Assembly: GCA_951812805.1 (NCBI GenBank) | Contig: CATOSZ010000005.1 | Coordinates: 1-64,000, forward strand | Reading direction: 5' to 3' | DNA length: 64,000 nt | Source: an uncultured Alphaproteobacteria bacterium | GTDB taxonomy: Bacteria > Pseudomonadota > Alphaproteobacteria > GCA-2731375 | Shown: piece by piece, positions 14,689-39,393 of the stretch | Numbering within the stretch: position 1 is the stretch's first letter | Layout: each line of letters begins with the position of its first letter | Notes under the pieces: model-generated | What the model was told of the DNA's origin: nothing | Databases searched by the model: none | The model's input: the letters and a program-made list of their open reading frames with translations, nothing else | Program-made: the position numbers and the translations under genes

Positions 14689-15086
14689 CCGAGCGTGTCC
14701 CGGTCGAAGGCGTGCGGCATCAGCTCGGCGAGCGTGAACCGGCGACGCAGTCCCTCCGGCCCGCAGATCAGGACCGGCGTGTCGGGGCCGGCGAACTCGA
14801 TCAGCTTCTGCCGGCAGCCGCCACACGGCGTACAGAGCCTCTCGCCACCGCCCGTGACCACGACCTCCGCGATGCGGCGATGGCCGGCCGCCACCATCGC
14901 GGCGATCGCCGAGGCCTCGGCACACCAGCCTTGCGGATAGGCCGCGTTCTCGACGTTGCAGCCGGAGAAGACGCCACCCTCGGCGCTGCGGATCGCCGCA
15001 CCCACCTGGAACTTGGAATAGGGCGCATGCGCCATGGCGCGCACGGCGGCGGCGGCATCGATCAGATCTTGCGGGAGCTTGCTCAT
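14685..15086 (-). CDS. cdd: Cytidine deaminase
   Basis: 133 residues, typical of the small tetrameric CDA. The zinc site is complete: Cys55 and Glu57 in WCAEASAI, and Cys88 and Cys91 in PCGGCRQ. The N-terminus has the substrate-binding YSKFQVGA and the segment GCNVENAAY. It hydrolyses cytidine and deoxycytidine to uridine and deoxyuridine, feeding the downstream phosphorylases. The start overlaps the stop of the upstream permease (ATGA), tying uptake and catabolism in one transcript. Confidence 0.95.
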   Translation of the reverse strand: MSKLPQDLIDAAAAVRAMAHAPYSKFQVGAAIRSAEGGVFSGCNVENAAYPQGWCAEASAIAAMVAAGHRRIAEVVVTGGGERLCTPCGGCRQKLIEFAGPDTPVLICGPEGLRRRFTLAELMPHAFDRDTLG

Positions 15087-16057: not shown

Positions 16058-16064
16058 GGCCAGG

Positions 16065-18729: not shown

Positions 18730-18751
18730 CGCGCGCGCCGTTCCGAGAGGT

Positions 18752-19750
18752 TCAGCCCTCGCAGCTGTTGTTCGACATGTAGTCGTGCACCTTGATCTTG
18801 CCGGCGATGATGTCGGCCCTGAGGCTGTCCATCATGGCCCGGGTTCCGGCGTCCACCAGCTTGTCGTTGTTGCCGTCGAGGGCCCAGCCGACGCCGTCCT
18901 CGGCGAGGCCGAGCACCTGGATACCCGGCTTCCAGGTCCCGTCCATCGCCGTCTTGAAGACATTGTAGGCGGCGACGTCGACGCGCTTCAGCATCGAGGT
19001 CAGGATGGTGCCCGGATGGATGTGGTTCTGGTTGCTGTCGACGCCGATCGCCAGCTTGCCGGCGTCCTTGGCCGCCTGCATCACGCCGACGCCGGTGCCA
19101 CCTGCCGCCGCGTAGACGATATCGGCGCCGCGGTCGAACTGGCTGCGCGCCAGCTCACCCCCCTTGGTTGGATTGTTCCAGGCCGCCGGCGTCGTGCCCG
19201 TCATGTTCTGCAGGACTTCGGCCTTGGCGTTCCCGTGCTTCACGCCCTGGACATAACCACAGGCGAAGCGGCGGATCAGCGGAATGTCCATGCCGCCGAT
19301 GAAGCCGACCTTGCCGGTCTTCGAGGTCGCGGCCGCCAGGGCGCCGACCAGGAAGGAGCCTTCATGCTCCTTGAAGACGATTGACTGCACGTTCGGCAGA
19401 TCGACCACCATGTCGATGATGGCGAAGCGGGTTTCGGGAAACTCCTTCGCGACCTTTTCCAAGGCCGGCGCCTGGGCGAAGCCGATGCCGAGGACGGGAT
19501 CGGCGCCGCGCTGGGCCATGCGGCGGAGTGCCTGTTCGCGCTGGGTTTCGTTGGTGACCTCGAACTCGCGGTACTTGACGCCGGTTTCCGTCTTGAAGCG
19601 TTCGATGCCGTTCCAGACGCCCTCGTTGAAGGATTTGTCGAACTTGCCGCCCATGTCGAAGACGACGGCGGGGCTCAACTCGGCGGCGGCAAGCGGCATG
19701 GCGGCCAGCAGCGCGGCCGAGGCGATGGTGATGGGAAGCGAAGCGCGCAT
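18752..19750 (-). CDS. BMP-family nucleoside-binding periplasmic protein
   Basis: 332 residues from ATG 19750, preceded by GGGGGAT. A signal peptide (MRASLPITIASAALLAAMPLAAA) is followed by the BMP-family opening VVFDMGGKFDKSFNEGVWNG and later EHEGSFLVGALAA, GFIGGMDIPLIRRF and GVDSNQNHIHPG, all typical of the PnrA/BmpA purine-nucleoside receptor family. There is no lipobox Cys at the cleavage site, so it is probably a soluble periplasmic protein. First gene of the operon that runs leftwards to the small antitoxin-like gene; the promoter should be within the 148 bases before 19899. Confidence 0.9.
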   Translation of the reverse strand: MRASLPITIASAALLAAMPLAAAELSPAVVFDMGGKFDKSFNEGVWNGIERFKTETGVKYREFEVTNETQREQALRRMAQRGADPVLGIGFAQAPALEKVAKEFPETRFAIIDMVVDLPNVQSIVFKEHEGSFLVGALAAATSKTGKVGFIGGMDIPLIRRFACGYVQGVKHGNAKAEVLQNMTGTTPAAWNNPTKGGELARSQFDRGADIVYAAAGGTGVGVMQAAKDAGKLAIGVDSNQNHIHPGTILTSMLKRVDVAAYNVFKTAMDGTWKPGIQVLGLAEDGVGWALDGNNDKLVDAGTRAMMDSLRADIIAGKIKVHDYMSNNSCEG

Positions 19751-19898
19751 GGGATCCCCCTTGGGAAAACTGTCTTGCCCGACCACCGGTGCGGTGGCGA
19801 GCGGATCGCTGAATTGTCACCCGCGCGTGGCCCGTCGGTCCAGCGCGAAATACGCTATCATCGGCCAGCGTGTTCGAAATTCAGGAGAGGCCGTCGCC

Positions 19899-20183
19899 AT
19901 GACCTTCGACGAGTTCAAAGCATCCCTCGACCAATCGGCCCCGTCCGCCGGCCTGTCACCGGCGCTCCAGGCGCTCTGGCAGGACGCCAAGGGGGAATGG
20001 GACGCCGCCCACGCCCTGGCGCAAAGCCAGGAGGATGCGACGGGGGCCTGGGTGCACGCCTACCTGCACCGGGTCGAAGGCGACCTCACGAATGCCGGCT
20101 ATTGGTATCGTCGCGCGGACAAGCCCGCGTCCGAGGCTGCGCTGGCGGAGGAATGGGAAGACATCGCCCGCGCCCTGCTGTAG
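19899..20183 (+). CDS. Small conserved protein of unknown function
   Basis: 94 residues, starting MTFDEFKASLDQSAPSAGL, with AGGAGAGG upstream. The pattern ALQALWQDAKGEWDAAHALAQ followed by GAWVHAYLHRVEGD and AGYWYRRADKPA is a helical arrangement I associate with widespread uncharacterised alphaproteobacterial proteins. It has no signal peptide, membrane segment or obvious catalytic motif. It is divergent from the nucleoside operon and 31 bases upstream of the iron-sulfur fusion gene, so may be co-transcribed with it. Confidence 0.75.
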   Translation: MTFDEFKASLDQSAPSAGLSPALQALWQDAKGEWDAAHALAQSQEDATGAWVHAYLHRVEGDLTNAGYWYRRADKPASEAALAEEWEDIARALL

Positions 20184-20214
20184 ATCCGGAAGCGGTGAGA
20201 GACGGAGAGTGCCG

Positions 20215-21834
20215 ATGAGCCGTTTGGGCATGGTCGTGGACCTCAACCGCTGCGTGGGGTGTCATACCTGCACCGCCGCCTGCAAGCAGACCAACGCCAC
20301 CCCGCCGGGCGTGCAGTGGCGCAGCGTCATCGACATCGAGCAGGGCAGCTATCCCGACGTCGAGCGGCTGTTCATGGTCGTCGGCTGCCAGCATTGTGCC
20401 GAGCCGCCCTGCGTTCCCGTCTGCCCCTCCGGCGCCACGGCGCAGCGCGCCGACGGGCTGGTGACCATGGACTACGAGACCTGCATCGGCTGCGGCTACT
20501 GCGCCGTCGCCTGTCCCTACCAGGCCCGCACCATCGTCGCGGAAAAGGAATATTTCTACGGCGAGCCGACGGCGTTGGAGAACGCGACCTATCACGACGA
20601 GCGGTTGGGCGTCGCCACCAAATGCACCTTCTGCGTCGAGCGCATCGACGAGGCCGATGCGCTGGGGCTGACGCCGGGCGTCGACATGGACGTAACGCCC
20701 GCCTGCGCCGCCGCCTGCATCGCCAGCGCGATCCACTTCGGCGATTTCGCCGATCCGGCCTCCAACGTCTCGCGCCTGGCGGCCGAGAACGCCTTCTTCC
20801 AGATGCACGAGGAACTCGGCACCGATCCGCAGATCAAGTACCTCTACGAAGTGCCGGGCAGCATGCCGGGACACACCGCCCGCCCCGAAGACACCGACGA
20901 CGAAAGCCTGAGCGACCCCGAGAACCCGCTGGTCGGCAAACGGCAGGAATACTGGGACTACAAGGCCGCGATGAACTTCGGCCTCGGCGGCCTGGCGTCG
21001 GGCGCGATGGTGATGGCCTGGCTGGCGAGTTTTGCGCTGCCGGTGACGGACGCCGCGCTCTCGGGCCTCTTCGCACTCTCCGGTGCGCTTCTGACCGTCG
21101 GCCTGGTCTTCGTCTTCCTGAAAATCCACAGGAAGGCGCGGTTCCTCAACGTGCTGCTGCGCCCCTCCAGCTCCTGGATGACGCGCGAGACCTACTGCGT
21201 GGCCCTGATCGTGCCGGCGATCCTGCTCGACCTGCTCTGGCCGAACGATGTCTTCCATGCCCTCGTCGGTATCGGCGCTTTGGGCTTCCTGGTCAGCCAG
21301 GCGCAAATTCTCTACCGCGCGCGCGGCATTCCCGCCTGGCGGGCGCCACTTGTCCCCTGGATGCTGACGGCGACCGGCCTGCTCGAGGGGCTGGGCCTGC
21401 TCGCCGTCCTGGCCTTCGCCTGGGCGAGCGCCGCGACCAGCGGCCTGGTCGATGGGCTCGCCTTCACGGGCATCGCCTTGACTCTCGCCAACGCCGGTCT
21501 CTGGTTCGCCTACCGGACCACGGCGCGCGCGCGCGGCATTCCGCCGCTCGCCCGGCGCGAGATCGAGGCGGTGACGCCCCTGCTGATGGTCGCGGGACAG
21601 GCTTGCCCCTTGCTGTTCTTCGGCCTGGCCGTCTGGGTCGGCGCCGGCGCGGGCGCGCTGGTACTGCTCGCGCTCGGCGGGGTCGCGGCGATCGCCGGCG
21701 GCCTGCTGTGGAAGTTCAAGGTGATTTTGGAGGCGTCGTATTTCCAGGGCTTCGCCCTGCCGAAGGCGCCGACGCGCGGCTCCGGCAACCGGGCCGCACC
21801 CCGGCGCCTGATCAGCCCCGGCGGCGCCGCCTGA
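20215..21834 (+). CDS. Fused DmsB-type ferredoxin / DmsC-type membrane anchor
   Basis: 539 residues. Residues 1-210 form an NrfC/DmsB-like electron-transfer module with four cysteine clusters: CVGCHTCTAAC, CQHCAEPPCVPVC, CIGCGYCAVAC and a fourth set in CTFCVERI...CAAAC. Residues about 255-525 contain eight or so membrane segments resembling DmsC/NrfD quinol-interacting anchors. In molybdoenzyme complexes these are normally two subunits serving a catalytic MGD-containing partner. No such partner, nor a TorD chaperone, lies in the flanks, so the electron donor/acceptor is unknown. Start 20215 is chosen for the conserved MVVDLNRCVGC opening. Confidence 0.85.
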   Translation: MSRLGMVVDLNRCVGCHTCTAACKQTNATPPGVQWRSVIDIEQGSYPDVERLFMVVGCQHCAEPPCVPVCPSGATAQRADGLVTMDYETCIGCGYCAVACPYQARTIVAEKEYFYGEPTALENATYHDERLGVATKCTFCVERIDEADALGLTPGVDMDVTPACAAACIASAIHFGDFADPASNVSRLAAENAFFQMHEELGTDPQIKYLYEVPGSMPGHTARPEDTDDESLSDPENPLVGKRQEYWDYKAAMNFGLGGLASGAMVMAWLASFALPVTDAALSGLFALSGALLTVGLVFVFLKIHRKARFLNVLLRPSSSWMTRETYCVALIVPAILLDLLWPNDVFHALVGIGALGFLVSQAQILYRARGIPAWRAPLVPWMLTATGLLEGLGLLAVLAFAWASAATSGLVDGLAFTGIALTLANAGLWFAYRTTARARGIPPLARREIEAVTPLLMVAGQACPLLFFGLAVWVGAGAGALVLLALGGVAAIAGGLLWKFKVILEASYFQGFALPKAPTRGSGNRAAPRRLISPGGAA

Positions 21835-22824: not shown

Positions 22825-25164
22825 TCACGTCACGGAATTGTTTTGCGCCGCGCGGATCGCCCGCCAGACCCTCTCGGGCGTGGCCGGCATCTCGACATGG
22901 CGCACGCCGTAATCGCCGAGCGCATCGACTATGGCGTTGATCACCACGGCCAGGGCCGGTGTCGTGCCCCCTTCCCCGCCCGGGCGAATGCCGTGGGGGT
23001 GGGACGACGCCGGCACCTCCATTAACTCAGTCTGCATCGGCGACGTGGTATCGGCGCGCGGCATGGCGTAGTCCATGAACGACCCGGTGAGCAATTGCGC
23101 GGTTTCCGGCTCGTAGTGGATCGCTTCCATCAACGCCTGGCCCAGGCCCTGGGCGATCGCCCCTTGCGCCTGGCCGTGCAGGATCAGCGGATTGACCGCC
23201 CGGCCGACATCGTCGACCCCGGTCCAGGTCAACAGGCGAACCTCGCCCGTCACCGGATCCACCTCGACCTCGCAGACATGGCTGCCCGAGGGATAACCGC
23301 CGGCCCGGTCCGTGATGTCGCCGACGCCGGTGAGGCCCTCGCCGGCCGCCCGTGCGGTGCTTGCGAGGTCGAGGCTGGCGCCGCCCGGGCCGTGAAAGAC
23401 GCCGTCTCGGAAGGCGATATCGCCCTCCGGCGCCTGCATCTCCCGGCTGGCGATTTTCGTGCCGCGCGCCACCAGATCCTCGATGGCCTGGGAGATCGCG
23501 ATGGAGGCGAGACGCATGGAACGGCCCGAGTGGGAACCGCCGCCGACCGACACCCGCGCCGTGTCGTTGGCGACATAGCGGACCGCGTCGAACGGCACGC
23601 CCAGCCAGTCGGCCACCAGCTGGGCATAGCTCGTCTCGTGCCCCTGGCCGCTGCTGGCGGTGCCCACGACGAGTTCGACACCGCCGTCGGGCGCCACCGT
23701 CAGCTCCGCGCGTTCGCGCGGCAGGCCGCTCGTCACCTCGATGTAGTTGGCGAGCGCGATGCCGCGACAAAGCCCGCGCGCGGCAGACTCCGCCCGGCGT
23801 GCGGCAAAGCCGTCCCACGCGCCGAGGTGCAGGGCCCGCTCCATGCCCGCCAGATAGTCGCCGCTGTCGTAGGTAACGCCGACCGCGGTGGTGAAGGGCA
23901 TGGCTGCGCTCGGGATCAGGTTGCGGCGACGCAGCTCGATCCGGTCGATACCCGAGACCTCGGCTGCCAGGTCGATCAACCGCTCGATGACGAAAATCGC
24001 CTCCGGCCGCCCGGCGCTGCGATAGACGGCGACGGGGGGCGTGTTGGTGAACACCGCCTCGCCGGTGAAGTGTACCGCGGGGATGTCGTAGACCCCCTGC
24101 ATGATCGAAAGGCCCTTGCGCAACGGCCAGAAATAAACCGTGTAGGCGCCGAGGTTCATCGTGTTGGCGCCGCGCAGGCCGAGGAACGTCCCATCCACAT
24201 CCAGTGCCAGCGCCGCCCGGACGGCGAGGTCGCGCCCCTGATAGTCCGAGAGGAAACATTCATTGCGGCTGGCGGTCCACTTCACCGGCCGGCCCACCCG
24301 CCGCGACGCCCAGGCGACCAGGGCGAATTCCGGCGAAAAGGCGTTTCGCGTGCCGAAGTTGCCGCCCATGTCGCCGAACAGCACGCGGCAGGTCTCCGGC
24401 GCGACGCCGAGGATGGTCGCCAGCCGATCCCGCGTCTGCACCGCGCCCCGGCCGGAGGCGGCGCGCAGCGTGTAGTGGTCGCGCGCGGAATCGTATTCGC
24501 CGATCGCCGCGCGCGGCTCCATCGGGCTGCCGGTGATCCGCTGTACCCAGGTCTCGAACTCCACGACATGGGCGGCCTCGGCGAAGGCCACATCGGTGCG
24601 GGCCGCATCGCCCACCTCGCAGGCGAGCGAGAGGTTGCCGGCGCATTCGGGCCAGACCCGGGGCGCGTCGGCGGCGCGGGCCGCGCGAGCATCGACCACG
24701 GCGGCCAGCGGCGCGTACGTCACCTCGACCCGCTCCGCCGCATCGGCCGCGATCTCCGCGCTTTCGGCGACGACGAAGGCGACCGGCTCGCCGACATAGC
24801 GAACCCGGTCCGCCGGCAGCACGTCGTGCGCGGCGAGATAGACCTCGAAGCCGTCCGGCAACGTCAGTTCGGCGTCCGGCGGGCCGGACCAGACCGGATC
24901 GTGCGGCATCGGCTGCAGCCCGTCGGCCGCCGCGTCCGCGCCGGTCAACACCGCCAGCACGCCCGGCAGGGCGCGGGCCTCCGTGGCGTCGATCGCCGTG
25001 ATTTCTGCATGTGCGTGGAGGGAGCGGACGACGGCCGCGAAGGCCAGACCGTCCGGCGCGAAGTCGCTCGTATAACCGCCGCGCCCGGTCAGCAGGCGGC
25101 GATCCTCCTTGCGCGGCATCGACGCGCCGATGCCGCCTGGCCGGACCTCCCTGTTCTCTGCCAT
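22825..25164 (-). CDS. Xanthine oxidase-family molybdopterin-binding large subunit (CoxL-like), solitary
   Basis: 779 residues, full length for CoxL/XdhB-type subunits. It begins with GASMPRKEDRRLLTGRGGYTSDF, has the Mo-cofactor segments MGGNFGTRNAFSPE and GQGHETSYAQLVADWLG, and the catalytic Glu731 in GGEGG. The loop that in CO dehydrogenase reads AYxCSFR and in form II enzymes AYRGAGR is VYRSAGR here (Tyr381), so it is not a form I CO dehydrogenase. No small iron-sulfur or FAD subunit gene adjoins it; it may borrow those from the cox operon at 30716. Gene context (CoA transferase, MaoC, Gfo/Idh/MocA) points to hydroxylation of an organic acid or heterocycle. Confidence 0.85.
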   Translation of the reverse strand: MAENREVRPGGIGASMPRKEDRRLLTGRGGYTSDFAPDGLAFAAVVRSLHAHAEITAIDATEARALPGVLAVLTGADAAADGLQPMPHDPVWSGPPDAELTLPDGFEVYLAAHDVLPADRVRYVGEPVAFVVAESAEIAADAAERVEVTYAPLAAVVDARAARAADAPRVWPECAGNLSLACEVGDAARTDVAFAEAAHVVEFETWVQRITGSPMEPRAAIGEYDSARDHYTLRAASGRGAVQTRDRLATILGVAPETCRVLFGDMGGNFGTRNAFSPEFALVAWASRRVGRPVKWTASRNECFLSDYQGRDLAVRAALALDVDGTFLGLRGANTMNLGAYTVYFWPLRKGLSIMQGVYDIPAVHFTGEAVFTNTPPVAVYRSAGRPEAIFVIERLIDLAAEVSGIDRIELRRRNLIPSAAMPFTTAVGVTYDSGDYLAGMERALHLGAWDGFAARRAESAARGLCRGIALANYIEVTSGLPRERAELTVAPDGGVELVVGTASSGQGHETSYAQLVADWLGVPFDAVRYVANDTARVSVGGGSHSGRSMRLASIAISQAIEDLVARGTKIASREMQAPEGDIAFRDGVFHGPGGASLDLASTARAAGEGLTGVGDITDRAGGYPSGSHVCEVEVDPVTGEVRLLTWTGVDDVGRAVNPLILHGQAQGAIAQGLGQALMEAIHYEPETAQLLTGSFMDYAMPRADTTSPMQTELMEVPASSHPHGIRPGGEGGTTPALAVVINAIVDALGDYGVRHVEMPATPERVWRAIRAAQNNSVT

Positions 25165-25177
25165 CCGGCCCTGCTCC

Positions 25178-26227
25178 TCACGCGATGTTGGTCGGCGCCA
25201 GGGTGCGACCGGCCGCCGCCGCCGCGTTCACCGCGAGGGTCGCGGCCAAGGTCGCCGCGCCGTCGCGCGCGCTCGTCCGCGGTGCTTCCTTGCCCCGGGC
25301 GACACGGCCGAAATGCTCGATCTGCCGGGCATAGGCATAGCCCCAGTCGTGTGGCCGGGTCTCGCTCGCCAGCGGATACTGCCAGCCGGACGCATTCGCG
25401 CCGCTGTATCGCCAGAGCCGCATCTCCGGCACCGCGAAAGACGCCTCGCTGCCCATGAAGTGAAAACTGTTCTGGTCCGTCTGGAAGAAATCCGCGTTCT
25501 CCCGCATGGTCATCTCGTAGGACCAGGGCGCCGGCGTCGCATCCGAGAGGATGACCGTGCCGATCGCACCGCCCTCGAGCCGCAGCGCCACCGCCGCCGT
25601 ATCCTCGACCTCGTGGCCCCGGGTCGCCGAGCTGACCTGGGCGCTCACCTCCGTGATCTCACCGGCGATCCAGCGCAGGCAATCGATATCGTGAATGAGG
25701 TTGGTCAGCACGGGCCCGCCGCCGGCCGCCACATGCCAGTCGACGTCGTAATATTCCGCATGCTTCAACGCCGTCCAGAAGACATGGAAAGCGACCAGCC
25801 GGCCGAGCTCGCCCGAGCGAACGATCGCCCGCGTGTTTTCCACCGTCGGATTGAAGCGGCGGTGGTGGCCGACGGCCATCGCCACGCCCTTGGCCTCCGC
25901 CGCCCGCACCAGCGTCTGCGCCTCCTCGACGCTGGCGGCCACGGGTTTCTCCATCAGGATGGCCACGCCCGCCTCGATGCAGGCGAGGCCCATCTCCAGA
26001 TGGTTGCCGGTCGGCGTTGCAACGATGACGCCTTCGGGCGCGTCGCTTTCGAACAGGTCTTGAACGGTGGCGCGCCAGGGCACCCCGAAGGCCGCCGCGA
26101 GCTCTCGGGCCTGGGGATCGGGATCGCAGATGGCCGCGAGCGCGCAGGTCTCCGACTCCGCAATCAGCTTGATGTGGCGGCGGCCGATGACGCCGGCGCC
26201 GATGACCGCCAGTCGAACCTTTTGCAT
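25178..26227 (-). CDS. Gfo/Idh/MocA-family NAD(P)-dependent oxidoreductase
   Basis: 349 residues. The N-terminal Rossmann motif VIGAGVIGRRHIKLIAES, the ATPTGNHLEMGLACIEAG stretch and the EKPVAAS motif with its catalytic Lys are diagnostic; the C-terminal half is the alpha/beta substrate domain with HDIDCLRWIAGEI (His near 170). Family members oxidise sugars, inositols or hydroxy acids with NAD(P). It is 13 bases upstream of the CoxL-like gene and 19 bases downstream of the CoA transferase, so one transcript is likely. Confidence 0.88.
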   Translation of the reverse strand: MQKVRLAVIGAGVIGRRHIKLIAESETCALAAICDPDPQARELAAAFGVPWRATVQDLFESDAPEGVIVATPTGNHLEMGLACIEAGVAILMEKPVAASVEEAQTLVRAAEAKGVAMAVGHHRRFNPTVENTRAIVRSGELGRLVAFHVFWTALKHAEYYDVDWHVAAGGGPVLTNLIHDIDCLRWIAGEITEVSAQVSSATRGHEVEDTAAVALRLEGGAIGTVILSDATPAPWSYEMTMRENADFFQTDQNSFHFMGSEASFAVPEMRLWRYSGANASGWQYPLASETRPHDWGYAYARQIEHFGRVARGKEAPRTSARDGAATLAATLAVNAAAAAGRTLAPTNIA

Positions 26228-26246: not shown

Positions 26247-27791
26247 TCAGGCCCGGAAGTGGTCCGGGTTCATGATTGCCGGGCCGTCGATCTCGGGGCG
26301 GAAGCCCATGCGTTGCAGCACGTCGGCCTCGAGGTCGATGCCGGGCGCGATCTCCGTCAGGGTGACGCCCGTCTCGCTCAAACGGAAGACCGCGCGCTCG
26401 GTGACGTAGACGACCTCCTGGTTCGTGGCCCGCGCCCTTGCGCCGGAAAAGGTGATCTGTGCGACCTCGGCCACGAGCTTGGAGATCTGGCCCGGCGCCT
26501 CGATACGCAGCACACCGTCACCCGGCACGAGGCGCGCGCCCTTGGTCTCGAAGGTGCCGCAGAACACCATTTTGCGGGCGTTCTGCGCGATGTCGATGAA
26601 GCCGCCAGGCCCGACCGTGGTCCCGTCCAGCTTGGAGGCGTTGACGTTGCCGGCGCCGTCCAGCTCCCCCATCCCGAGGAAGGCGATATCCAGCCCGCCG
26701 CCGCCGTAGAAATCGAACTGCGAGGGCGAGTCGAGCATGGCCGTGGCGTTGCGCGCATAGCCGAACAACGTGCCGTCGAGCAGGGAGCCGCCGTAGGTGC
26801 CGTGCTCGATCGTCTGGTAATAGCGATCGACCGCGCCGGAGGCGGCCAGGATCTTGGCGACGCCGTCGGGAATGCCGAAGCCGAAGTTGATCACCGCGCC
26901 CTCGCGCAGTTCCTCGGCCGCGCGGCGGGCCACCACCTGGCGGACGGAGAACTCGGGCGGCGCCTCGGCCGGCACCACGCCGCGCCGCTCGCCCGAAAGG
27001 GTCGGATCATAGGCGCCCGCATAGCTCTGCGCCTGGTCGGGGACCAGCAGCACGGCATCGACCATCGCGCCCGGCACCCGGACCGAGCGTGCGGGCAAGG
27101 CGCCGTGCTCGACCGCCGTGCGCGCCTGGGCCAGGACCTTGCCGCCACTGTTGTGCGCGGCCAGCGCCATCGCCCAGATGTCGAGGTTCGCCCCCTCCTG
27201 GTCGAGCGACAGGTTGCCGTCGCCGTCGGCGAAGCTGCCGCGGATCACCGCGATATCGAGCGGCATCGGCTTGTAGCGCAGCCATTCCCGTCCCGCGATC
27301 TCGACCACCTCGACCAGTTCGTCCTTGGCCGCGTCGTTCATCCGGCCACCGTCGAGGCGGGGATCGACGAAGGTGCCGAGGCCGACATGGCTCAACAGGC
27401 CGGGCCGCCCCGCGCCGGTCTCGCGCATGAGCTGGCCGATCACGCCGCCCGGCAGGACGTAGGCCTCGATTTTGTTCTCCCGCGCCAGGCGCTGCATCTC
27501 CGGCGACCAGACCCAGTGGCCGCCGATGACCTTGCGCACCATGCCCTCGTGCGCCAGCCGGTTGACGCCGCGCGCCGCGCGGTCGCCGATACCAAGTGCG
27601 TGGATCACCGTCAGGTCGCGGGGATGGCCAGTCTCGAAAAAGCGCGCCTCGATCGCCGCCAGCACCGCGTCCGGCTCGACCAGGCCGCCGCCCGCCCCGC
27701 TCATGCCCAGGGTGGCGCCGTCGGGGACCAGCGCGGCGAGCGCCCGGGGATCGGTGAACTTGTCGCGCCGGCTCAACTGTTCGCCACCCAT
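26247..27791 (-). CDS. Acyl-CoA:acetate/3-ketoacid CoA transferase (fused subunits)
   Basis: 514 residues, a single-chain family I CoA transferase like YdiF, with both halves fused. The N-terminal half has LGMSGAGGGLVEP and VIGGHWVWSPEM; the C-terminal half has INFGFGIPDGVAKIL, the glutamyl nucleophile in TIEHGTYGG (about residue 330) and GMGELDGAGNVNASK, and GPGGFIDIAQNARK. It moves CoA between a carboxylate and acetyl- or succinyl-CoA, activating the pathway acid. The gene overlaps the upstream MaoC gene by 19 bases. Confidence 0.88.
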   Translation of the reverse strand: MGGEQLSRRDKFTDPRALAALVPDGATLGMSGAGGGLVEPDAVLAAIEARFFETGHPRDLTVIHALGIGDRAARGVNRLAHEGMVRKVIGGHWVWSPEMQRLARENKIEAYVLPGGVIGQLMRETGAGRPGLLSHVGLGTFVDPRLDGGRMNDAAKDELVEVVEIAGREWLRYKPMPLDIAVIRGSFADGDGNLSLDQEGANLDIWAMALAAHNSGGKVLAQARTAVEHGALPARSVRVPGAMVDAVLLVPDQAQSYAGAYDPTLSGERRGVVPAEAPPEFSVRQVVARRAAEELREGAVINFGFGIPDGVAKILAASGAVDRYYQTIEHGTYGGSLLDGTLFGYARNATAMLDSPSQFDFYGGGGLDIAFLGMGELDGAGNVNASKLDGTTVGPGGFIDIAQNARKMVFCGTFETKGARLVPGDGVLRIEAPGQISKLVAEVAQITFSGARARATNQEVVYVTERAVFRLSETGVTLTEIAPGIDLEADVLQRMGFRPEIDGPAIMNPDHFRA

Positions 27792-28210
27792 TTCAGGATA
27801 TGCGCGCCGACGCAGACCAGCTCACCCTGCTGGTTGGTCACCTGGATCTCGGCGGTGGAGCGGCGCCGTTCGACATCGACCTCGTTCACCTCGTAGGCGA
27901 CGGTGATGGTATCGCCGAGGAAGACCGGCGCCAGGAAGCGGATCCGGTCATAGCCGAGGGAGACCGGCGTCTCGTGCGGATCCTCGCGACACTTCGCGAT
28001 CGCCAGGGTCGAGGCGGTCGACATGAAGCCCACCATCAACGCGCCGTGCGCCATGCGCCGGCCGTAGCTGGAGCGGGCCATGTATTCCTCGTTCACATGG
28101 TTGGGCGAGAAATCACCGGTGAGGCCGGCGAAGTTGTAGACGTCGCATTCCGCGACGGTCTTGGAAAAGGTCACCCGGTCGCCGACGGCGACATGGAAAT
28201 CGTTGTTCAT
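27773..28210 (-). CDS. MaoC-like (hot-dog fold) dehydratase
   Basis: 145 residues from ATG 28210, preceded by GGGGAGGAGAG. The MaoC pattern is present: FAGLTGDFSPNHVNEEYMARSSYGRRMAHG contains the hydratase-motif Asp and His, followed by GALMVGFM and a GDTITVAYEV strand. Such proteins hydrate enoyl-CoA thioesters or form thioesterase-like subunits. As first gene of the leftward catabolic unit (MaoC, CoA transferase, Gfo/Idh/MocA, CoxL-like), it fits CoA-linked degradation. Confidence 0.85.
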   Translation of the reverse strand: MNNDFHVAVGDRVTFSKTVAECDVYNFAGLTGDFSPNHVNEEYMARSSYGRRMAHGALMVGFMSTASTLAIAKCREDPHETPVSLGYDRIRFLAPVFLGDTITVAYEVNEVDVERRRSTAEIQVTNQQGELVCVGAHILKWVANS

Positions 28211-30715: not shown

Positions 30716-31177
<462 letters not shown>

Positions 31178-31250: not shown

Positions 31251-33605
31251 ATGACGGCGGAGACCGGTATTGGCGCAGCGGTCAAGCGCAAGGAAGACGG
31301 CCGATTTCTCACCGGCAGGGGCCGGTATACGGACGACATCAACCAGCCGGGACAGGTGCATGCCTTTTTCCTGCGCTCGCCCCATGCGCACGCGACGATC
31401 AACAGCATCGACGTCAATGCGGCCAAATCGGCGGCGGGCGTCCGCGCGGTTTACACCGGCACCGACGTCACGGCGGAAGACGTCGGCACGCTGATCTGCG
31501 GCTGGAACGTCGTCGGCAAGAACGGTGAAGGCCACCTGGCCCCGCCGCACCCGGTGATCGCCAGCGGCAAGGCGCGCTATGTCGGCGACCCCGTCGCCGT
31601 GGTCGTGGCCGATACGCTGGCCCAGGCCAAGGACGCGGCCGAGCTGATCGACGTCGATTACGGCGTGCTGCCGGCGAGCGCCGACCTGGCGACGACGCTG
31701 GACGCGGGCGCGGCGCAGATCCACGACGAGGTCCCCGGCAACATGTCCTACGACTGGGACCTCGGCGACAAGGCCGCCGTCGATGCCGCCTTCGCCGGTG
31801 CCGCCCATGTCACCAAGCTGGAGATCGTCAACAACCGCTTGGCGCCGAACGCGATCGAGCCGCGCGCGGCGGTGGGCGCGCATGATCCGGGCACCGACCA
31901 GCACACCCTCTATCTCGCGAGCCAGAACCCGCATGTGACGCGCCTCGTGCTCTCCGCCTTCCACGGGCTGGCGCCGGAGCACAAGCTTCGTGTCGTCGCA
32001 CCCGACGTCGGCGGCGGCTTCGGCTCAAAGATCTTCATCTACAACGAGGATGTCTTCCTCACCTGGGCGTCGGCCAAGGTCGGCCGGCCGATCAAGTGGA
32101 CGGCGGAGCGTTCGGAAAGCTTTATGACCGACGCGCACGGCCGCGACCATGTAACGACGGCGGAACTCGCGCTCGACGGGGACGGTAACTTCCTCGCCAT
32201 GCGGGTCGACACCATCGCCAACATGGGGGCCTATCTCTCGACCTTCTCGACGGCGGTGCCGACCTACCTCTACGGCACCCTGCTGGCGGGCCAGTACAAG
32301 ACCCCGGTGATCCACGTGAACGTCCGCGCGGCCTTCACCAACACCGTGCCGGTCGACGCCTATCGCGGCGCCGGGCGGCCGGAGGCGACCTTCGTGGTCG
32401 AGCGGCTGGTCGAGCAGGCGGCCCGTGAGACCGGCGTCGATCCGGCGGAGTTGCGCCGGCGGAACTTCATCCAGCCGGACGAGTTCCCCTACCAGACCCC
32501 GGTGGCGCTGCAATACGACTCGGGCAACTACGAGGCCACGATGGACAAGGCGTTGGGCCTGGCCGATTACGCCGGCTTCGCCGCCCGCAAGGCGGAGGCA
32601 GCAGGTCGCGGCAAGCGCCGTGGCATCGGCTTCTCCAACTACATCGAGGCCTGCGGCCTGGCACCGAGCCAGGTGGTCGGGTCCTTGGGCGCCGGCGTCG
32701 GCCAGTGGGAGAGCGCGCAGGTGCGCTTCAACCCGACCGGCAACGTGCTGGTCTTCACCGGCTCGCACAGCCACGGCCAGGGCCACGAGACGACCTTCGC
32801 ACAGATCGTCTCCGACAAGCTCGGCATTCCGCTGGAGAATGTCGAGGTGGTGCACGGCGATACCGCCAGCGTGCCCTTCGGCATGGGCACCTACGGCTCG
32901 CGCAGCCTGGCGGTCGGCGGAAGCGCCATCGTCAAGGCCTGCGACAAGATCGTCGAGAAGGGCCGCAAGATCGCCGCCCACATCATGGAGGCCTCGGTCG
33001 AGGATATCGAGTACGACGGCGGCACCTTCGCCGTCGCCGGCACCGACAAGTCGATCACCACCGCGGAGATCGCCTTCGCGGCCTACGTCCCGCACAACTA
33101 TCCGCTCGATGAGCTGGAGCCGGGCCTGGACGAGAACGCCTTTTACGATCCCGCCAACTTCACCTACCCGGCGGGCTGTCAGATCTGCGAGGTGGAGATC
33201 GATCCCGACACCGGCGTGGTGGAGATCGCCAAGTTCACCGCGGTCGACGACTTCGGCAACGTCGTCAACCCGATGATCGTCGAAGGCCAGGTGCACGGCG
33301 GCATCACCCAGGGCATCGGTCAGGCGCTGCATGAAGGTGTCGTCTACGACGGCAGCGGTCAGCTCATCACCGGGTCCTTCATGGACTACCAGATGCCGCG
33401 GGCCGGCGACCTTCCTTCCTACGACGTCGACACCACCGTGACCCCCTGCCCGCACAATCCGCTGGGCGTGAAGGGCTGCGGCGAGGCGGGCGCCATCGCA
33501 GCGCCGGCCGCGGTGATGAACGCGGTAACCGACGCGCTTGGGATCGACAATATGCAGATGCCCGCGACGGCCGAAAAAGTCTGGCGCGCGGCAAACGCCG
33601 GCTGA
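31251..33605 (+). CDS. coxL: Form II CO dehydrogenase-type large molybdenum subunit
   Basis: 784 residues, preceded by GGAGGA. It has the N-terminal [20 protein letters not shown], the active-site loop AYRGAGR (residues 370-376), which defines form II, the segment [17 protein letters not shown], and the catalytic Glu745 in GCGEAG. It lacks the CSFR selenocysteyl-copper loop of genuine form I CO dehydrogenase, so oxidation of CO at atmospheric levels should not be assumed. It binds molybdopterin cytosine dinucleotide and forms the LMS heterohexamer with the neighbouring gene products. Confidence 0.92.
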
Positions 33606-33639: not shown

Positions 33640-34437
33640 ATGTACAACTTCAACTACCACCGCGCGGGCTCCCTCGCCGAGGCGGAGAGCGCGCTCGCCG
33701 CCGCCGAGGACGGCGCCCTGATGGCCGGCGGCCAGACCTTGCTGCCGACCCTGAAGCAGCGTCTCGCCAGTCCGAGCGATGTGATCGATATCGGCGCGAT
33801 TCCCGAGCTCGCCAACATCGAGTCGGCCGGCGGCGCCGTGACCGTCGGGGCCGGCACCCGGCATGCCGACGTCGCCGGATCCGCAGCGGTGGCAAGCGCC
33901 ATTCCCGCGCTCGCCGCCCTCGCCGAGCTGATCGGCGATCCGCAGGTCCGCAACATGGGCACCATCGGTGGTTCCATCGCCAACGCGGATCCGGCCGCCG
34001 ACTATCCCGCCGCCATCGTCGGCCTCGGCGCCACGGTCAACACCAACCGGCGCGCCATCGCCGGCGACGACTTCTTCCAGGGCCTGTTCGAAACGGCGCT
34101 GGACGAGGGCGAAATCATCACCTCCATGGCCTTCCCGGTACCTGAGGCGGCGGGCTATGCCAAGTTCCCGCAGCCGGCCTCGCGCTTCGCCATGGTCGGC
34201 GTCATGGTCAGCCGCGGCGCCGGTGGCGTCCGCGTCGCCGTCACCGGCGCAGGCCCCAGCGTCTTCCGCGTCGGTGATATGGAAGCCGCACTGGCCGGCA
34301 ACTTCTCCGCCGGCGCCCTCGACGGCATCTCGGTCTCGGCCGACGGCCTCAACGCCGACATCCACGGCAGCGCCGAGTATCGCGCCCACCTCGTCGGTGT
34401 GATGGCCAAGCGGGCCGTCCAGGCCGCGGGCGGCTGA
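33640..34437 (+). CDS. coxM: CO dehydrogenase-type FAD-binding medium subunit
   Basis: 265 residues starting MYNFNYHRAGSLAEAE. The two FAD motifs are visible: AGGQTLLP (35-42) and TIGGSIANADPAADYP (about 109-124). It transfers electrons from the iron-sulfur subunit to an external acceptor such as quinone. The start follows coxL by 34 bases with AAGGAG upstream. It is followed by a strong hairpin before coxD. Confidence 0.92.
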   Translation: MYNFNYHRAGSLAEAESALAAAEDGALMAGGQTLLPTLKQRLASPSDVIDIGAIPELANIESAGGAVTVGAGTRHADVAGSAAVASAIPALAALAELIGDPQVRNMGTIGGSIANADPAADYPAAIVGLGATVNTNRRAIAGDDFFQGLFETALDEGEIITSMAFPVPEAAGYAKFPQPASRFAMVGVMVSRGAGGVRVAVTGAGPSVFRVGDMEAALAGNFSAGALDGISVSADGLNADIHGSAEYRAHLVGVMAKRAVQAAGG

Positions 34438-34451
34438 GCTTACGAACCGCC

Positions 34452-34516
34452 CGCCCCTCGCGGGGCGTGGATATGCTACATGTCCGGGGAGGTTCGCCTC
34501 CCCGGACATTTGTTTG
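34452..34516 (+). terminator. Two hairpins between coxM and coxD (possible partial terminator or processing site)
   Basis: A 6-bp stem CGCCCC/GGGGCG with a TCGC loop at 34452-34467 is followed by a perfect 12-bp stem (TGTCCGGGGAGG / CCTCCCCGGACA) with a TTCG loop at 34481-34508 and the T-rich tail TTTGTTTG. Geometry is that of an intrinsic terminator, yet the maturation genes continue only 40 bases downstream. It may let structural genes be expressed at a higher level than the maturation genes. Confidence 0.75.
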
Positions 34517-34547
34517 TGGCCTCGATGAACAGCAGGAGTCACGCGCC

Positions 34548-35492
34548 ATGAGCGAGCGCGCCATCCCTTCCCCGGCCCCCGGCGCCCTGCCGGGCGATAT
34601 CGACGCCATGCAGGCGCTGCTCTCGGCGGGCAGTTACGTCGCCGACCGCAGCCTGGCGACGACGCTGTTCCTCTCGCTCTCGCTCGGCCGGCCGATCTTC
34701 CTCGAAGGCGAGGCCGGGGTCGGCAAGACGGAAATCGCCAAGGTCCTGGCCGACACGCTCGGCCGCCGCCTGGTCCGCCTGCAATGCTACGAGGGGCTCG
34801 ACATCGCCTCGGCGGTCTATGAGTGGAACTACGCTCGCCAGATGATCGAGATCCGCCTGGCCGAGGCGAGCGGCACGGTCGACCGCGGCGCGCTCGGCCG
34901 CGACGTCTTCAATGCTGAATTCCTGATCAAGCGGCCGCTGCTGCAGGCCCTGGAGGCGGACGTGGGCGGCCCGCCGGTGCTGCTGATCGACGAACTCGAC
35001 CGTACGGACGAACCCTTCGAAGCCTTCCTGCTGGAGGTGCTGTCCGACTTCCAGATCACCATTCCCGAGATCGGCACCCTGGCGGCGGGCGCCCCGCCCC
35101 TCGTCGTCATCACCTCGAACCGGACGCGGGAAATCCACGACGCGCTGAAACGGCGCTGTCTCTATCACTGGGTCGACTATCCCGACGCCGAACGCGAGCT
35201 GGAGATCATTCGCCTGAAGGCCCCCGGCACGCCGGAGGCGCTGGCCCGCCAGGTCGTCGCCTTCGTCCAGGCCTTGCGCCGGGAGGACCTGTTCAAACTG
35301 CCGGGCGTCGCCGAGACGATCGATTGGGCCACCGCATTGTCGTTCCTCGACCGTCTCGCCCTCGATCCCGAAACGATCGACACCACGCTCGGCGTGCTGC
35401 TGAAGTACCAGGACGACATTCAGAAGATCCAGGGCAGCGAAGCGGCGCGCATCCTGCAGGACATCAACCGGGAAATCCTCAACCTGTCATGA
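34548..35492 (+). CDS. coxD: MoxR-type AAA+ ATPase, CoxD-like
   Basis: 314 residues. Walker A GEAGVGKT (54-61), Walker B LLIDELDRTDE (near 145) and sensor-1 region VVITSNRTREI are complete. MoxR ATPases act as chaperones together with a VWA protein; CoxD is needed for maturation of the metal centre in CO dehydrogenase of Afipia/Oligotropha. Start at 34548 places GCAGGAG upstream. Its stop overlaps the coxE start (ATGA). Confidence 0.9.
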   Translation: MSERAIPSPAPGALPGDIDAMQALLSAGSYVADRSLATTLFLSLSLGRPIFLEGEAGVGKTEIAKVLADTLGRRLVRLQCYEGLDIASAVYEWNYARQMIEIRLAEASGTVDRGALGRDVFNAEFLIKRPLLQALEADVGGPPVLLIDELDRTDEPFEAFLLEVLSDFQITIPEIGTLAAGAPPLVVITSNRTREIHDALKRRCLYHWVDYPDAERELEIIRLKAPGTPEALARQVVAFVQALRREDLFKLPGVAETIDWATALSFLDRLALDPETIDTTLGVLLKYQDDIQKIQGSEAARILQDINREILNLS

Positions 35493-36730
35493 GCGAGACG
35501 CCGTCGCCGACGCCCGCCAGCGGCGAGAGCGGGCACATCGCCCTGAACGTCATGCACTTCGCCCGCGTCCTGCGGGCCGCCGGCCTCCCCGTCGGGCCCG
35601 GCCGGGTGATCGAGGCGGTGCGCGCGCTGGAGGTCGTCGGCGTCACACGGCGCGACGATTTCTACTGGGCCCTGTTTTCCGTCTTCGTCTCACGGCGCGA
35701 CCAGCGCGACCTGTTCGACCAGGCCTTCCACGTCTTCTGGCGCAATCCGAAGATCCTGGAACGGATGGTTTCCATGCTGCTCCCGAGCGTCGAGACGGAG
35801 AGCGAGGACGACCAGCGCGAGGAGTTGAACCGCCGGGTCGCGGAGGCCCTGTTGCCGGGGCGCGACGGCGAACAAAACGACGATGCGCCGGAAGAGATCG
35901 AGTTCGACGCCACCCTCACCTTTTCAGATCAAGAAGTCCTCCAGGGCATGGACTTCGAAGCCATGAGCGCGGAGGAGTTGGCACAGGCCAAGGCGGCGAT
36001 CGCGCGGCTGCGCCTGCCGATCGTCGATGTTCCCACCCGCCGCTTCAAGCCGCACTCCCACGGCCGACGGATCGACATGCGGGCAACCTTGCGCGCGGCA
36101 CTCCGCGATCCCGCCGCCATTCCACTGCGCCGCCGCAAGCGCCTGCGCCGCCATCCCCCGCTGGTGGTGATCTGCGACATTTCCGGATCCATGAGCCGTT
36201 ACTCCCGGATGTTCCTGCATTTCATGCATGCGGTCACCAACGATCGCGACCGGGTGCATACGTTCGTATTCGGCACGCGCCTCACCAACATCACCCGCCA
36301 CCTGCGGCAGAAGGACGTCGACGTCGCCCTCGACCGGATTACCGAGGCGGTCGACGACTGGTCCGGCGGCACGCGGATCGGTGCCTGCATGGCGGACTTC
36401 AACGCCACCTGGTCGCGCCGGGTGCTGGGCCAGGGCGCCATCGTCCTGGTCATCTCCGACGGCCTCGACCGGGACGCAGGCCAGGGCATCACCGGCGAGA
36501 TGGAACGGCTGCACAAATCCTGCCGCCGGCTGATTTGGCTCAATCCCCTCTTGCGCTACGAGGGATTCCAACCAAAATCGAGAGGGGTACGCGCGATGCT
36601 GCCCCATGTGGACGATTTCCGCACCGTCCATAACCTCGACAGTCTGGGGGACCTGGCCACGGCGCTGAGCCGGCCGGCAACCCGCAAGGTGGAACACCGC
36701 GCCGCCCTGAGCGAGGCGCGGATGGCATGA
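35489..36730 (+). CDS. coxE: VWA-domain protein, CoxE-like
   Basis: 413 residues. The N-terminal helical part and the acidic middle (EDDQREELN...EEIEFDATL) lead to a von Willebrand A domain with the MIDAS motif DISGSMS from Asp230 and a later SGGTRIG and VISDGLDRD. The RRIDMRATLRAALR stretch before the domain is typical of CoxE/VWA containing CoxE-like proteins. Expected to work with the MoxR ATPase in enzyme maturation. Translational overlap with coxD supports this. Confidence 0.9.
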   Translation: MSETPSPTPASGESGHIALNVMHFARVLRAAGLPVGPGRVIEAVRALEVVGVTRRDDFYWALFSVFVSRRDQRDLFDQAFHVFWRNPKILERMVSMLLPSVETESEDDQREELNRRVAEALLPGRDGEQNDDAPEEIEFDATLTFSDQEVLQGMDFEAMSAEELAQAKAAIARLRLPIVDVPTRRFKPHSHGRRIDMRATLRAALRDPAAIPLRRRKRLRRHPPLVVICDISGSMSRYSRMFLHFMHAVTNDRDRVHTFVFGTRLTNITRHLRQKDVDVALDRITEAVDDWSGGTRIGACMADFNATWSRRVLGQGAIVLVISDGLDRDAGQGITGEMERLHKSCRRLIWLNPLLRYEGFQPKSRGVRAMLPHVDDFRTVHNLDSLGDLATALSRPATRKVEHRAALSEARMA

Positions 36731-36752: not shown

Positions 36753-37082
36753 ATGGACGCGCTGAAGGACGACGAAACGGTTCTGGAACAGGCCGCGGCC
36801 TGGAAGACGGAAGGCAAGGGCGTGGCGCTCGCCACCGTGGTTTCGACCTGGGGCTCATCGCCCCGCCCGGTCGGCAGCCAGCTGGCGATCACGGGCGAGG
36901 GTAATTTCATCGGCTCGGTCTCCGGCGGCTGCATCGAGGGCGCGGTGGTGCACGAGGCGCGGCAAGTGATCGACGAGGGCGGCACCCGCATGCTGACCTA
37001 CGGCGTCACCGACGAGATGGCCTGGGAAGTCGGGCTCGCCTGCGGCGGCACGGTCGAAGTCTTCGTGGAGCCAGTCGAATGA
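36753..37082 (+). CDS. XdhC/CoxI-family protein, N-terminal domain only
   Basis: 109 residues, containing only the XdhC_CoxI domain: VALATVVSTWGSSPRPVGSQLAI, GSVSGGCIEGAV and GLACGGTVEVFVEP. XdhC-type proteins bind molybdenum cofactor, help sulfurate it, and deliver it to xanthine dehydrogenase-family enzymes. Here the Rossmann half is a separate gene that overlaps the stop (ATGA), so the usual single protein is split in two coupled polypeptides. Confidence 0.88.
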   Translation: MDALKDDETVLEQAAAWKTEGKGVALATVVSTWGSSPRPVGSQLAITGEGNFIGSVSGGCIEGAVVHEARQVIDEGGTRMLTYGVTDEMAWEVGLACGGTVEVFVEPVE

Positions 37083-37762
37083 AGTCGGATTTGCTGGACA
37101 GGCTGCTGGCGGACCGGGACGCCAAACGCGCGGTGGTGCTGGTGACCGACCTCGATAACGGCGGCGGCGAACTGCACTATCCCGGCGAGGGCGGCGATGG
37201 CGCCCTGGCCGAGGCGGTCGCCGCCGCGGCCCGTGCCGACAAGAGCCGGATCATCGAGCACGAAGGCCGGCGCCTGTTCCTGAACGTGAACAATCCGCCC
37301 TTGCGCATGGTCATCTGCGGTGCCGTGCACATCGCGCAGCCGCTAAGCCGCATGGCCACGCTCGCCGGCTACGACGTCACCGTGGTCGACCCGCGCGCCG
37401 CGTTCGCCAGCGCGGAACGCTTTCCCGGGCTGGCGTTGAGCCACGAATGGCCGGATGAAGCGATGGAGGCGCTCGGCCCCGACGCCCGCACGGCCGTAGT
37501 GACGCTAACGCACGACCCGAAGCTCGACGACCCGGCACTGCTGGTCACGCTCCGCTCGCCGGCCTTCTACATCGGCTCCCTCGGCTCGACCCGCACGCAC
37601 GCCAAGCGCAAGGAACGGCTGTCGGCGGAAGGCATCGACGAGGCGAACTTCGCCCGCATCCACGGCCCCATCGGGCTCGACATCGGGGCCAAGTCGCCGG
37701 CGGAGATCGCCGTCTCCATCATGGGCGAGATCACCGAAACGCTTCGCCGGAAGCTCGACTGA
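37079..37762 (+). CDS. XdhC family, C-terminal Rossmann domain protein
   Basis: 227 residues. The C-terminal XdhC domain is recognisable from LRMVICGAVHIAQPLSRMATLAGYDVTVVDPR, then VTLTHDPKLDDPAL, FYIGSLGSTRTHAKRKERL and HGPIGLDIGAKSPAEIAVSI. It completes the function of the preceding small protein in Mo-cofactor sulfuration and insertion. The ATG overlaps the previous stop and its own stop overlaps the next start by one base (TGATG), so the three genes are tightly coupled. Confidence 0.88.
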   Translation: MKSDLLDRLLADRDAKRAVVLVTDLDNGGGELHYPGEGGDGALAEAVAAAARADKSRIIEHEGRRLFLNVNNPPLRMVICGAVHIAQPLSRMATLAGYDVTVVDPRAAFASAERFPGLALSHEWPDEAMEALGPDARTAVVTLTHDPKLDDPALLVTLRSPAFYIGSLGSTRTHAKRKERLSAEGIDEANFARIHGPIGLDIGAKSPAEIAVSIMGEITETLRRKLD

Positions 37763-39393
37763 TGTATTTCGGGCCGCTTCCGACAGCCGAGGCCGCCGGC
37801 GCCATTCTCGCACATGCCCAGGCGGTGGCGGGCCTGCGGATGAAGAAGGGGCGCGTGCTGTCCACCGGCGATGTCGAGGCACTGCTGGCCGCCGGCGTCG
37901 ACAGTGTGATCGCCGCCCGCCTCGAGGCCGGCGACATGGCGGAGGATGAAGCGGCGGAGGCGATCGCCGGCACGCTCGCCGGTGCGGCCGTGCGTCGTCA
38001 GGCCGCCTTCACCGGGCGGGCCAACCTCTATGCCGAGGCCGACGGCGTGCTGTGCCTGGACACGGGCCGGATCGACGCCCTCAACCGCATCGACGAGGCG
38101 ATCACCGTCGCCACCCTGCCGCCGCACCACCGGGTGCGCGAGGGACAGATGCTGGCGACGATCAAGATCATCCCCTTCGCCGCCCCCAGGGCCGCGGTCG
38201 AGACGGCCCTCGCCATCGCGGGCGAGGCCACCCCGCTGGTCTCGGTGAGTGCGCTCCGCCCGCGCAACGCGGCGCTGATCATGACGCGGCTGGAGACGAC
38301 GAAGGCCAGCGTCCTCGACAAGACGCGCGAGGTTCTGGCCGCCCGCCTCACCGAACTGTCTAGCCGGATCGGCCACGAGGCGCGCTGCGCCCACGAAGCG
38401 GAGGCGATTGGGAGCGAGATCGAGGCGGCGCTGGCCGCCGGCGCCAATCCGGTGTTGATCTTCGGCGCCTCCGCCATCACCGATCGGCGCGACGAGATCC
38501 CCGCAGGTATCGAGGCGGCCGGCGGCACCGTCGACCATTTCGGCATGCCGGTCGATCCGGGCAACCTGCTGCTGCTCGGTCACAAGGGCGACGTGCCGAT
38601 CATCGGCCTGCCGGGCTGTGCCCGCTCGCCCAAGCTGAACGGCTTCGACTGGGTACTGGAACGCCTGGTCGCCGGCGTGCCGGTGACGGCCGACGACATC
38701 AAGGCGATGGGCACCGGCGGCCTGTTGATGGAAATCGCCAGCCGCCCGCAACCCCGCGCCGGATCACAGGCAAACGAGCCCGCCCGCGCGCCGCGCATCG
38801 CCGCGCTGGTGCTGGCGGCCGGCCAGTCGCGCCGCATGGGCCGGCGCAACAAGCTGCTGGCCGAGATCGACGGCGTGCCCATGGTCGCCCGCGCGGTGGA
38901 TTCGGCACTCGCGTCGGAAGCCCGCAGTGTCGTCGTCGTCACCGGGCACGAACCGGACGAGGTGCGGGCCTGCCTCGCCGACCGCTCCGTCCGATTCGCC
39001 CACAGCCCCGATTATGCGGAGGGACTGAGCCAGTCACTGCGCGCCGGCCTGGACGCGCTGGGGGAAGATATCGACGGCGTCGTCGTCCTGCTCGGCGACA
39101 TGCCGCGCGTCGGGCCGGCGCATATCGACAAGCTGATCGCCGCCTTCAACCCGCTGGAGGGACGCGCCATCTGCGTGCCGACGCGTGCCGGCAAACGCGG
39201 CAATCCCGTGCTCTTCGCCCGCCACCTGTTCGAAGACATGCGCACCGTCGCCGGCGACGTCGGCGCCCGCCACCTGATCGGACAACACGAAGACGAGCTG
39301 GTGGAGGTCGAGATGGGCGGCGACGACGACGCCATCTTCATCGACGTCGACACGCCGGAGGCCCTGACGGAGATTACGAGCCGGTCGACCTGA
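37762..39393 (+). CDS. Fused molybdopterin-binding domain and MobA/MocA-like nucleotidyltransferase
   Basis: 543 residues. The first 330 residues are a MoCF-biosynthesis-type domain with MKKGRVLSTGD, GASAITDRRDEIPAGIEAAGG and GLPGCARSPKLNGFDWVLER. Residues about 345-540 are a nucleotidyltransferase with the signature LVLAAGQSRRMGRRNKLLAEI and LLGDMPRVGPAHID, resembling MocA, which makes molybdopterin cytosine dinucleotide, the cofactor of CoxL. Placement at the end of the cox operon matches cofactor maturation. The start overlaps the XdhC stop, and the 3' end overlaps the convergent hydrolase gene by 20 bases. Confidence 0.88.
   Translation: MYFGPLPTAEAAGAILAHAQAVAGLRMKKGRVLSTGDVEALLAAGVDSVIAARLEAGDMAEDEAAEAIAGTLAGAAVRRQAAFTGRANLYAEADGVLCLDTGRIDALNRIDEAITVATLPPHHRVREGQMLATIKIIPFAAPRAAVETALAIAGEATPLVSVSALRPRNAALIMTRLETTKASVLDKTREVLAARLTELSSRIGHEARCAHEAEAIGSEIEAALAAGANPVLIFGASAITDRRDEIPAGIEAAGGTVDHFGMPVDPGNLLLLGHKGDVPIIGLPGCARSPKLNGFDWVLERLVAGVPVTADDIKAMGTGGLLMEIASRPQPRAGSQANEPARAPRIAALVLAAGQSRRMGRRNKLLAEIDGVPMVARAVDSALASEARSVVVVTGHEPDEVRACLADRSVRFAHSPDYAEGLSQSLRAGLDALGEDIDGVVVLLGDMPRVGPAHIDKLIAAFNPLEGRAICVPTRAGKRGNPVLFARHLFEDMRTVAGDVGARHLIGQHEDELVEVEMGGDDDAIFIDVDTPEALTEITSRST

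Follow-up and report, generated by a model that had tools for sequence, protein, structure and literature searches.

Genomic evidence that a solitary CoxL-type molybdenum subunit may share the CoxS and CoxM subunits of a form II-type cox operon

Introduction

In the xanthine oxidase family, electrons generally pass from the molybdenum cofactor (Moco) through 2Fe-2S centers to FAD. The locus described here raises the question of how a molybdenum-binding large subunit (L) can function when neither a 2Fe-2S subunit (S) nor an FAD subunit (M) is encoded beside it. We examined such a gene in a 64,000-nucleotide stretch of DNA (the window) from an uncultured member of the Alphaproteobacteria, whose genome is referred to as the source genome (G000).

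Form II is defined by the loop AYRGAGR and the gene order coxSLM, and its role is described as unclear (PMC13203968). Three papers attribute lone form II coxL, or coxSM without coxL, to genome incompleteness or functional loss (PMC13285871, PMC13240472, and PMC11245477). The first puts 16 metagenome-assembled genomes with form II coxL and without coxM/coxS down to incompleteness; the second, a survey of form I, gives the same account of lone coxL; and the third records coxS and coxM in photic SAR202 with coxL absent.

The solitary gene and its catalytic residues

The solitary gene (Table 1) is a real, complete CoxL-type large subunit gene. Its product matched the Pfam domains Ald_Xan_dh_C, MoCoBD_1, and MoCoBD_2, each far over the cut-off. 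Antisense noise was rejected as an explanation because a codon-position gene call picked the minus-strand open reading frame (ORF) that encodes these three domains and passed over an overlapping 787-residue ORF on the plus strand. An earlier reading of the DNA (the sequence-only reading) had described, without giving its strand, a large subunit that lacks an adjoining S or FAD gene in the window, carries an active-site loop of neither form I nor canonical form II, and retains the catalytic Glu731, and on each of these points our analysis agrees. The catalytic role of Glu731 is taken over from the xanthine oxidase family, and the motif GDMGGNFGTRN presumably represents the Moco-binding region. 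Judging by its domains and catalytic residues, the protein is predicted to be a catalytically complete molybdenum hydroxylase large subunit.

An AlphaFold model of L alone, built from a 17-row alignment, had a mean pLDDT of 69.4 with active-site segments below 50 and serves as a fold check only. The top folds retrieved by Foldseek with this low-confidence model were the same as the best PDB sequence matches.

Table 1. Positions of the features discussed, in the window or in the locus record named
Feature	Record	Positions	Strand	Basis or remark
Solitary CoxL-type molybdenum subunit	window	22825..25164	minus (25164 down to 22825)	ATG start, 779 aa; ORF and Pfam
Catalytic Glu731	window	22972..22974	minus	residue 731, C-terminal GxGE-like motif
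Active-site loop VYRSAGR	window	24007..24027	minus	residues 380-386; kept in 52/52 orthologues
Motif GDMGGNFGTRN	window	24343..24375	minus	residues 264-274; kept in 52/52 orthologues
Gfo/Idh/MocA oxidoreductase	window	25178..26227	minus	13 bp upstream of solitary L; profile match
Single-chain CoA-transferase	window	26247..27791	minus	PF01144; weak resemblance to FadX
MaoC-like hydratase	window	27773..28201 (approx.)	minus	overlaps CoA-transferase start
coxS, 2Fe-2S subunit	window	30716..31177	plus	proposed shared S partner; S clade placement
coxL, form II type	window	31251..33605	plus	AYRGAGR at residue 370; same L clade as solitary gene
coxM, FAD subunit	window	33640..34437	plus	proposed shared M partner; M tree
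MoxR-type AAA ATPase (CoxD-like)	window	34467..35492	plus	cassette gene
CoxE-like VWA protein	window	35504..36730	plus	PF05762
XdhC/CoxI-type protein	window	36753..37082	plus	PF02625
XdhC Rossmann-domain protein	window	37079..37762	plus	PF13478
MobA-like nucleotidyltransferase protein	window	37762..39393	plus	PF12804
Mu/IS21-like transposase unit near solitary L	L108	11564-13818
Mu/IS21-like transposase unit near solitary L	L109	3511-5765
Mu/IS21-like transposase unit near solitary L	L106	12345-14599

Orthologues and their surroundings

When a species-level genome set was scanned, 52 distinct orthologues with 59 to 71% identity were recovered, nearly all of them in metagenome or single-cell genomes of Alphaproteobacteria. 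Rows L075 to L083 duplicate genomes of L023 to L074, and counts first made on 61 rows were redone on the 52. Since the loop VYRSAGR recurs in every orthologue, it is not a chance variation, and the many residues that are invariant among the orthologues speak for selection. The equivalent of Glu731 is present in 58 of the 61 aligned rows, nine of which are duplicates, and the other three have gaps. Matches at 51 to 52% in four further genomes (G126, G222, G311, and G388) lack VYRSAGR and are tree neighbors rather than strict orthologues; VYRSAGR marks one orthologous subfamily. We also considered the loop as the cause of solitude and rejected it: solitary members of the wider L clade described below carry AYRGAGR or PYRGAGR, and the loop therefore does not account for the missing partners.

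Searches with tblastn using the window CoxS and CoxM matched none of the 52 orthologous loci at an E value of ≤1e-6 within the available flanks (both sides extend for ≥2.5 kb at 34 loci and for ≥8 kb at 19). Hidden Markov models (HMMs) built from the source genome's own S and M found no M at the 52 loci and only one weak S match (L028, 3536-4369; E value of 5.4e-5), some 6 kb away from the orthologue there. The contig that carries one orthologue (L055) is 5.09 Mb long and bears the title chromosome 1.

Another explanation for these data could be that the assemblies are fragmented or incomplete, or that the gene is a decaying remnant. Most of the relatives are indeed metagenome-assembled, two surveys from 2026 account for lone coxL in this way (PMC13240472 and PMC13285871), and one paralogue in the source genome (C3:2159334) is interrupted. 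However, the flanks consist of intact DNA with other genes, and the conservation of residues among the orthologues is at odds with decay. Furthermore, G311, a genome assembled as a single 4.15-Mb contig, has 19 L genes of the same clade without an adjacent S or M, which argues against incomplete assembly as the cause of lone L genes. We regard artifact or decay as very improbable.

Mobile elements were observed near several paralogues. In the source genome, a paralogous solitary L (C3:2157806-2161301; L107 8304-12054) is split by an ORF with helix-turn-helix transposase-like domains, and similar-looking two-gene Mu/IS21-like transposase units (PF22483 and rve; Table 1) lie near three other solitary L genes.

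In the window, the solitary gene is the last of a tight minus-strand run of MaoC, CoA-transferase, Gfo, and L. The CoA-transferase, MaoC, and Gfo genes singled out by the sequence-only reading are thus present here, but they are not conserved: tblastn searches with the three window proteins matched none of the 52 orthologous loci at an E value of ≤1e-6, apart from a single distant Gfo match at L026 (23% identity). Because this cluster adjoins none of the 52 orthologues, it says little about the function of the family, and we rejected it as a clue to the function of L. Clustering of neighbors over the 52 loci likewise found no widely conserved neighbor, only lineage-limited sets: an amidohydrolase at 8 loci, and PhzF, SDR, MFS, dienelactone hydrolase, and acyl-CoA ligase genes at 6 to 7 related loci (Pfam assignments of examples). 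Such sets fit peripheral catabolism and point to no particular substrate. Elsewhere in the window are a BMP-type ABC transporter (permease, ATPase, and PnrA-like binding protein; 15083-19786, minus strand) and a 4Fe-4S dicluster protein whose C-terminal portion is long and hydrophobic (20035-21834, plus strand), followed by a glyoxalase-family gene.

Could L simply work without S and M, either delivering Moco electrons to dioxygen or a different acceptor or serving a non-redox role? Solitude that is near-absolute over 52 loci would agree with this, as would the fold kept in the model of L alone. However, at its level of confidence the model is uninformative on partners, and the active-site motifs and Glu731 are kept, while no alternative redox gene is conserved alongside across lineages. 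Moreover, the L-less S-M cassettes of genomes with many clade L genes (see below) would be left with no obvious function. We consider a partner-independent L quite unlikely.

Subunit counts and matching clades

The source genome gave 24 large-subunit (MoCoBD_2) matches, some of which are pieces of split genes, versus 15 Fer2_2 and 12 FAD_binding_5 matches, and several of the closest paralogues of the solitary L also stand alone. MoCoBD_2 matches outnumbered Fer2_2 matches in all 15 genomes of the family (the order-level search covered the same 15), and in three genomes of another family, G311 among them, the respective counts were 36/12, 42/13, and 43/14.

Phylogenetic trees of the three subunits were obtained by a quick, short search, the S tree on about 145 columns. 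In the L tree (139 rows), a clade of 93 with SH-aLRT support of 100 brings together the query and its orthologues, the closest paralogues of the query, and the window coxL. Its 91 labeled rows comprise 78 solo and 13 partnered genes, compared with 13 solo and 33 partnered outside it (Fisher P = 3e-11, descriptive only because the rows are related; for G311, a gene was scored as partnered if an S lay no more than 4 kb away). Two rows truncated at contig ends carry no label, and one divergent ior-type L of G311 and one orthologue row sharing the genome of G207 were dropped. The solo rows outside the clade come from G311 (8), G000 (3), G299 (1), and G207 (1).

A matching clade appears in each of the other trees. 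In the S tree (103 rows), a clade of 29 with support of 98 holds the S partners of the L clade's partnered genes; among the S placed, it includes a single sequence from each of 23 genomes and 6 plasmid records. The M tree (44 rows) has a matching clade of 23 with support of 100. Placement covered every S of G311 (14), G222 (12), G002 (8), G126 (5), G014 (5), and G299 (4); G000 is represented by 14 S rows for its 15 Fer2_2 matches, G207 by 5 of 6 S matches, and the remaining genomes by some of their S. For solitary plasmid homologues, the S content is that of the plasmid records rather than of whole host genomes.

Within the matching clades, the L:S ratio is 19:1 in G311, 7:1 in G000 and G126, and 5:1 in G299 and G207; each of these five genomes combines one clade S-M module with more than one clade L. 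None of the 19 in G311 has an adjacent S or M, and 3 of them are split into two ORFs; one of the seven in G000 is interrupted by an insertion. Across the 15 family genomes, a search at an E value of ≤1e-150, a cut that admits only clade members in G000, gave 89 L matches, 3 to 8 per genome, with one matching operon in each.

The sequence-only reading had suggested that the solitary L might use CoxS and CoxM from the nearby cox operon, so that two enzymes would share electron-transfer subunits. Phylogeny and gene content favor these partners, as the window coxS and coxM are the only matching-clade S and M found in G000. The number of enzymes needs revision: rather than two, seven clade L genes occur in G000 and up to 19 in the related G311. 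Nearness, in turn, was rejected as meaningful. The nearest S to the solitary L is coxS, which lies 5.6 kb away measured from the L start codon and 7.9 kb away measured from the L stop codon, but the orthologue and the S-L-M operon of the matching clade occupy separate contigs in all 9 family relatives that have an orthologue, so the short distance is incidental.

Alternatively, the S and M used by the solitary L might be of a different type and come from another locus of the genome, such as an M-S-L or ior-type operon. Heterologous partnerships are conceivable in this family, and further types of S occur in every genome searched (the total of Fer2_2 matches runs from 4 to 15, with the maximum in G000). 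In the fully examined genomes, however, the other S that were placed fall outside the clade that matches the solitary L, and nearly all of them adjoin their own L or an ior-type L; possible exceptions in G000 are a weak S-like match on C3 and one lone M. No co-varying lone S-M pair was found except that of the clade, and a separate dedicated S-M pair elsewhere in G000, which the sequence-only reading had named as evidence against sharing, was looked for and not found. Pairing with another type seems to us unlikely.

Cassettes without L and intermediate arrangements

In G311, G222, and G388, an S-M-MoxR-CoxE-XdhC-XdhC-MobA-like cassette is syntenic with the window operon and has no L. No L was found in the 16 kb around the S-M cassette of these genomes, and the G311 cassette is separated from the closest clade L by 70 kb. 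S and M are only tens of bases apart, leaving no room for a remnant of L. A cassette of this kind implies either that S-M serves large subunits encoded elsewhere or that it has another role. All three cassettes come from one genus and perhaps represent one event.

On two Sinorhizobium plasmids, S. meliloti pA (L144) and S. fredii NGR234 pNGR234b (L180), two divergent clade L genes flank one S-M pair, an intermediate arrangement. S and M adjoin a clade L in Paraburkholderia, where an enoyl-CoA hydratase gene comes next, as it does after the solitary genes of Sagittula and Neorhizobium. About 4 kb from the solo L of A. tumefaciens is an S-M pair, the S of which falls outside the clade of 29.

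A proposed shared electron-transfer module

We propose, at a probability of roughly 70%, that one S-M module is used in trans by many catalytic L subunits, including the solitary L. The solitary L would work with CoxS and CoxM of the source genome's single form II-type cox operon, which would also provide cofactor maturation through its MoxR, CoxE, XdhC, and MobA-like proteins, these inserting Moco into the solitary L. The substrate would be oxidized at Moco, and electrons would pass by way of the two 2Fe-2S centers of CoxS to the FAD in CoxM. The S-M module would thus act as a hub, with several related solitary L subunits as interchangeable catalytic parts. From the genomic pattern we infer both the physical assembly of the solitary L with CoxS and CoxM and the flow of electrons between them. 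The reaction is probably a hydroxylation, and the substrate probably belongs to the peripheral catabolism of aromatic or CoA-linked acids.

Several lines of evidence support this proposal: the intact domains and residues of the solitary L, its conserved solitude, the matching L, S, and M clades, the single S-M pair facing many L genes, and the L-less cassette in a one-contig genome. Against it stand the 13 solo rows outside the L clade, which make solitude not unique to the clade, and the S genes of other types in all genomes searched, which could serve instead. A broader version, to which we give even odds, is that the form II "CO dehydrogenase" operon is a general service module (an S-M pair plus maturation proteins) for dispersed L genes, up to about 19 per genome and each with its own substrate, and that some lineages have lost the L of the module.

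We found no earlier description of such sharing of S-M among molybdenum hydroxylases in the open-access literature searched. If S-M is shared, the published observations of lone coxL and of coxSM alone would be explained, enzyme counts taken from coxL alone would be wrong, and deleting coxSM once would directly test a whole series of unknown oxidations. Bacteria could then diversify multisubunit hydroxylases by duplicating the catalytic part alone, and a wide range of enzymes might depend on one electron-transfer module.

Comparison with known enzymes

The solitary L shares its clade with form II CoxL, and its proposed S-M partner belongs to a coxSLM operon in the window, but it differs from form II in its loop and in the absence of S and M alongside; its identity to the window coxL is 45%. 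With form I CO dehydrogenase (CoxMSL) it has fold and domains in common, and its best PDB sequence match is a CoxL (8uem), but the Cys of the form I loop AYxCSFR is absent. The solitary L stayed below every NCBIfam equivalog cut-off: its nearest scores were 498 bits versus 790 for glyceraldehyde dehydrogenase alpha and 393 versus 991 for CO dehydrogenase (TIGR02416), followed by 332 versus 994.55 for 4-hydroxybenzoyl-CoA reductase, and 290 versus 780 for xanthine dehydrogenase. Comparable sequence matches were obtained to the xanthine oxidase family large subunits of quinoline 2-oxidoreductase (1t3q), 6-hydroxypseudooxynicotine dehydrogenase (7dqx), and 4-hydroxybenzoyl-CoA reductase (1rm6), each of which has a dedicated S and M.

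Common electron-transfer parts occur in another setting, the sphingomonads, where they are used by many dioxygenases. The ring-hydroxylating dioxygenases of SAR202 resemble the present case in that catalytic alpha subunits far outnumber beta subunits, as L does S here; these are Rieske enzymes, however, and their authors infer monomeric enzymes rather than sharing (PMC6946804).

A second, smaller, and mostly solitary group of L genes was also observed in G311 (L154, L164, L165, and L174, with L175), one of them partnered; it perhaps represents another hub.
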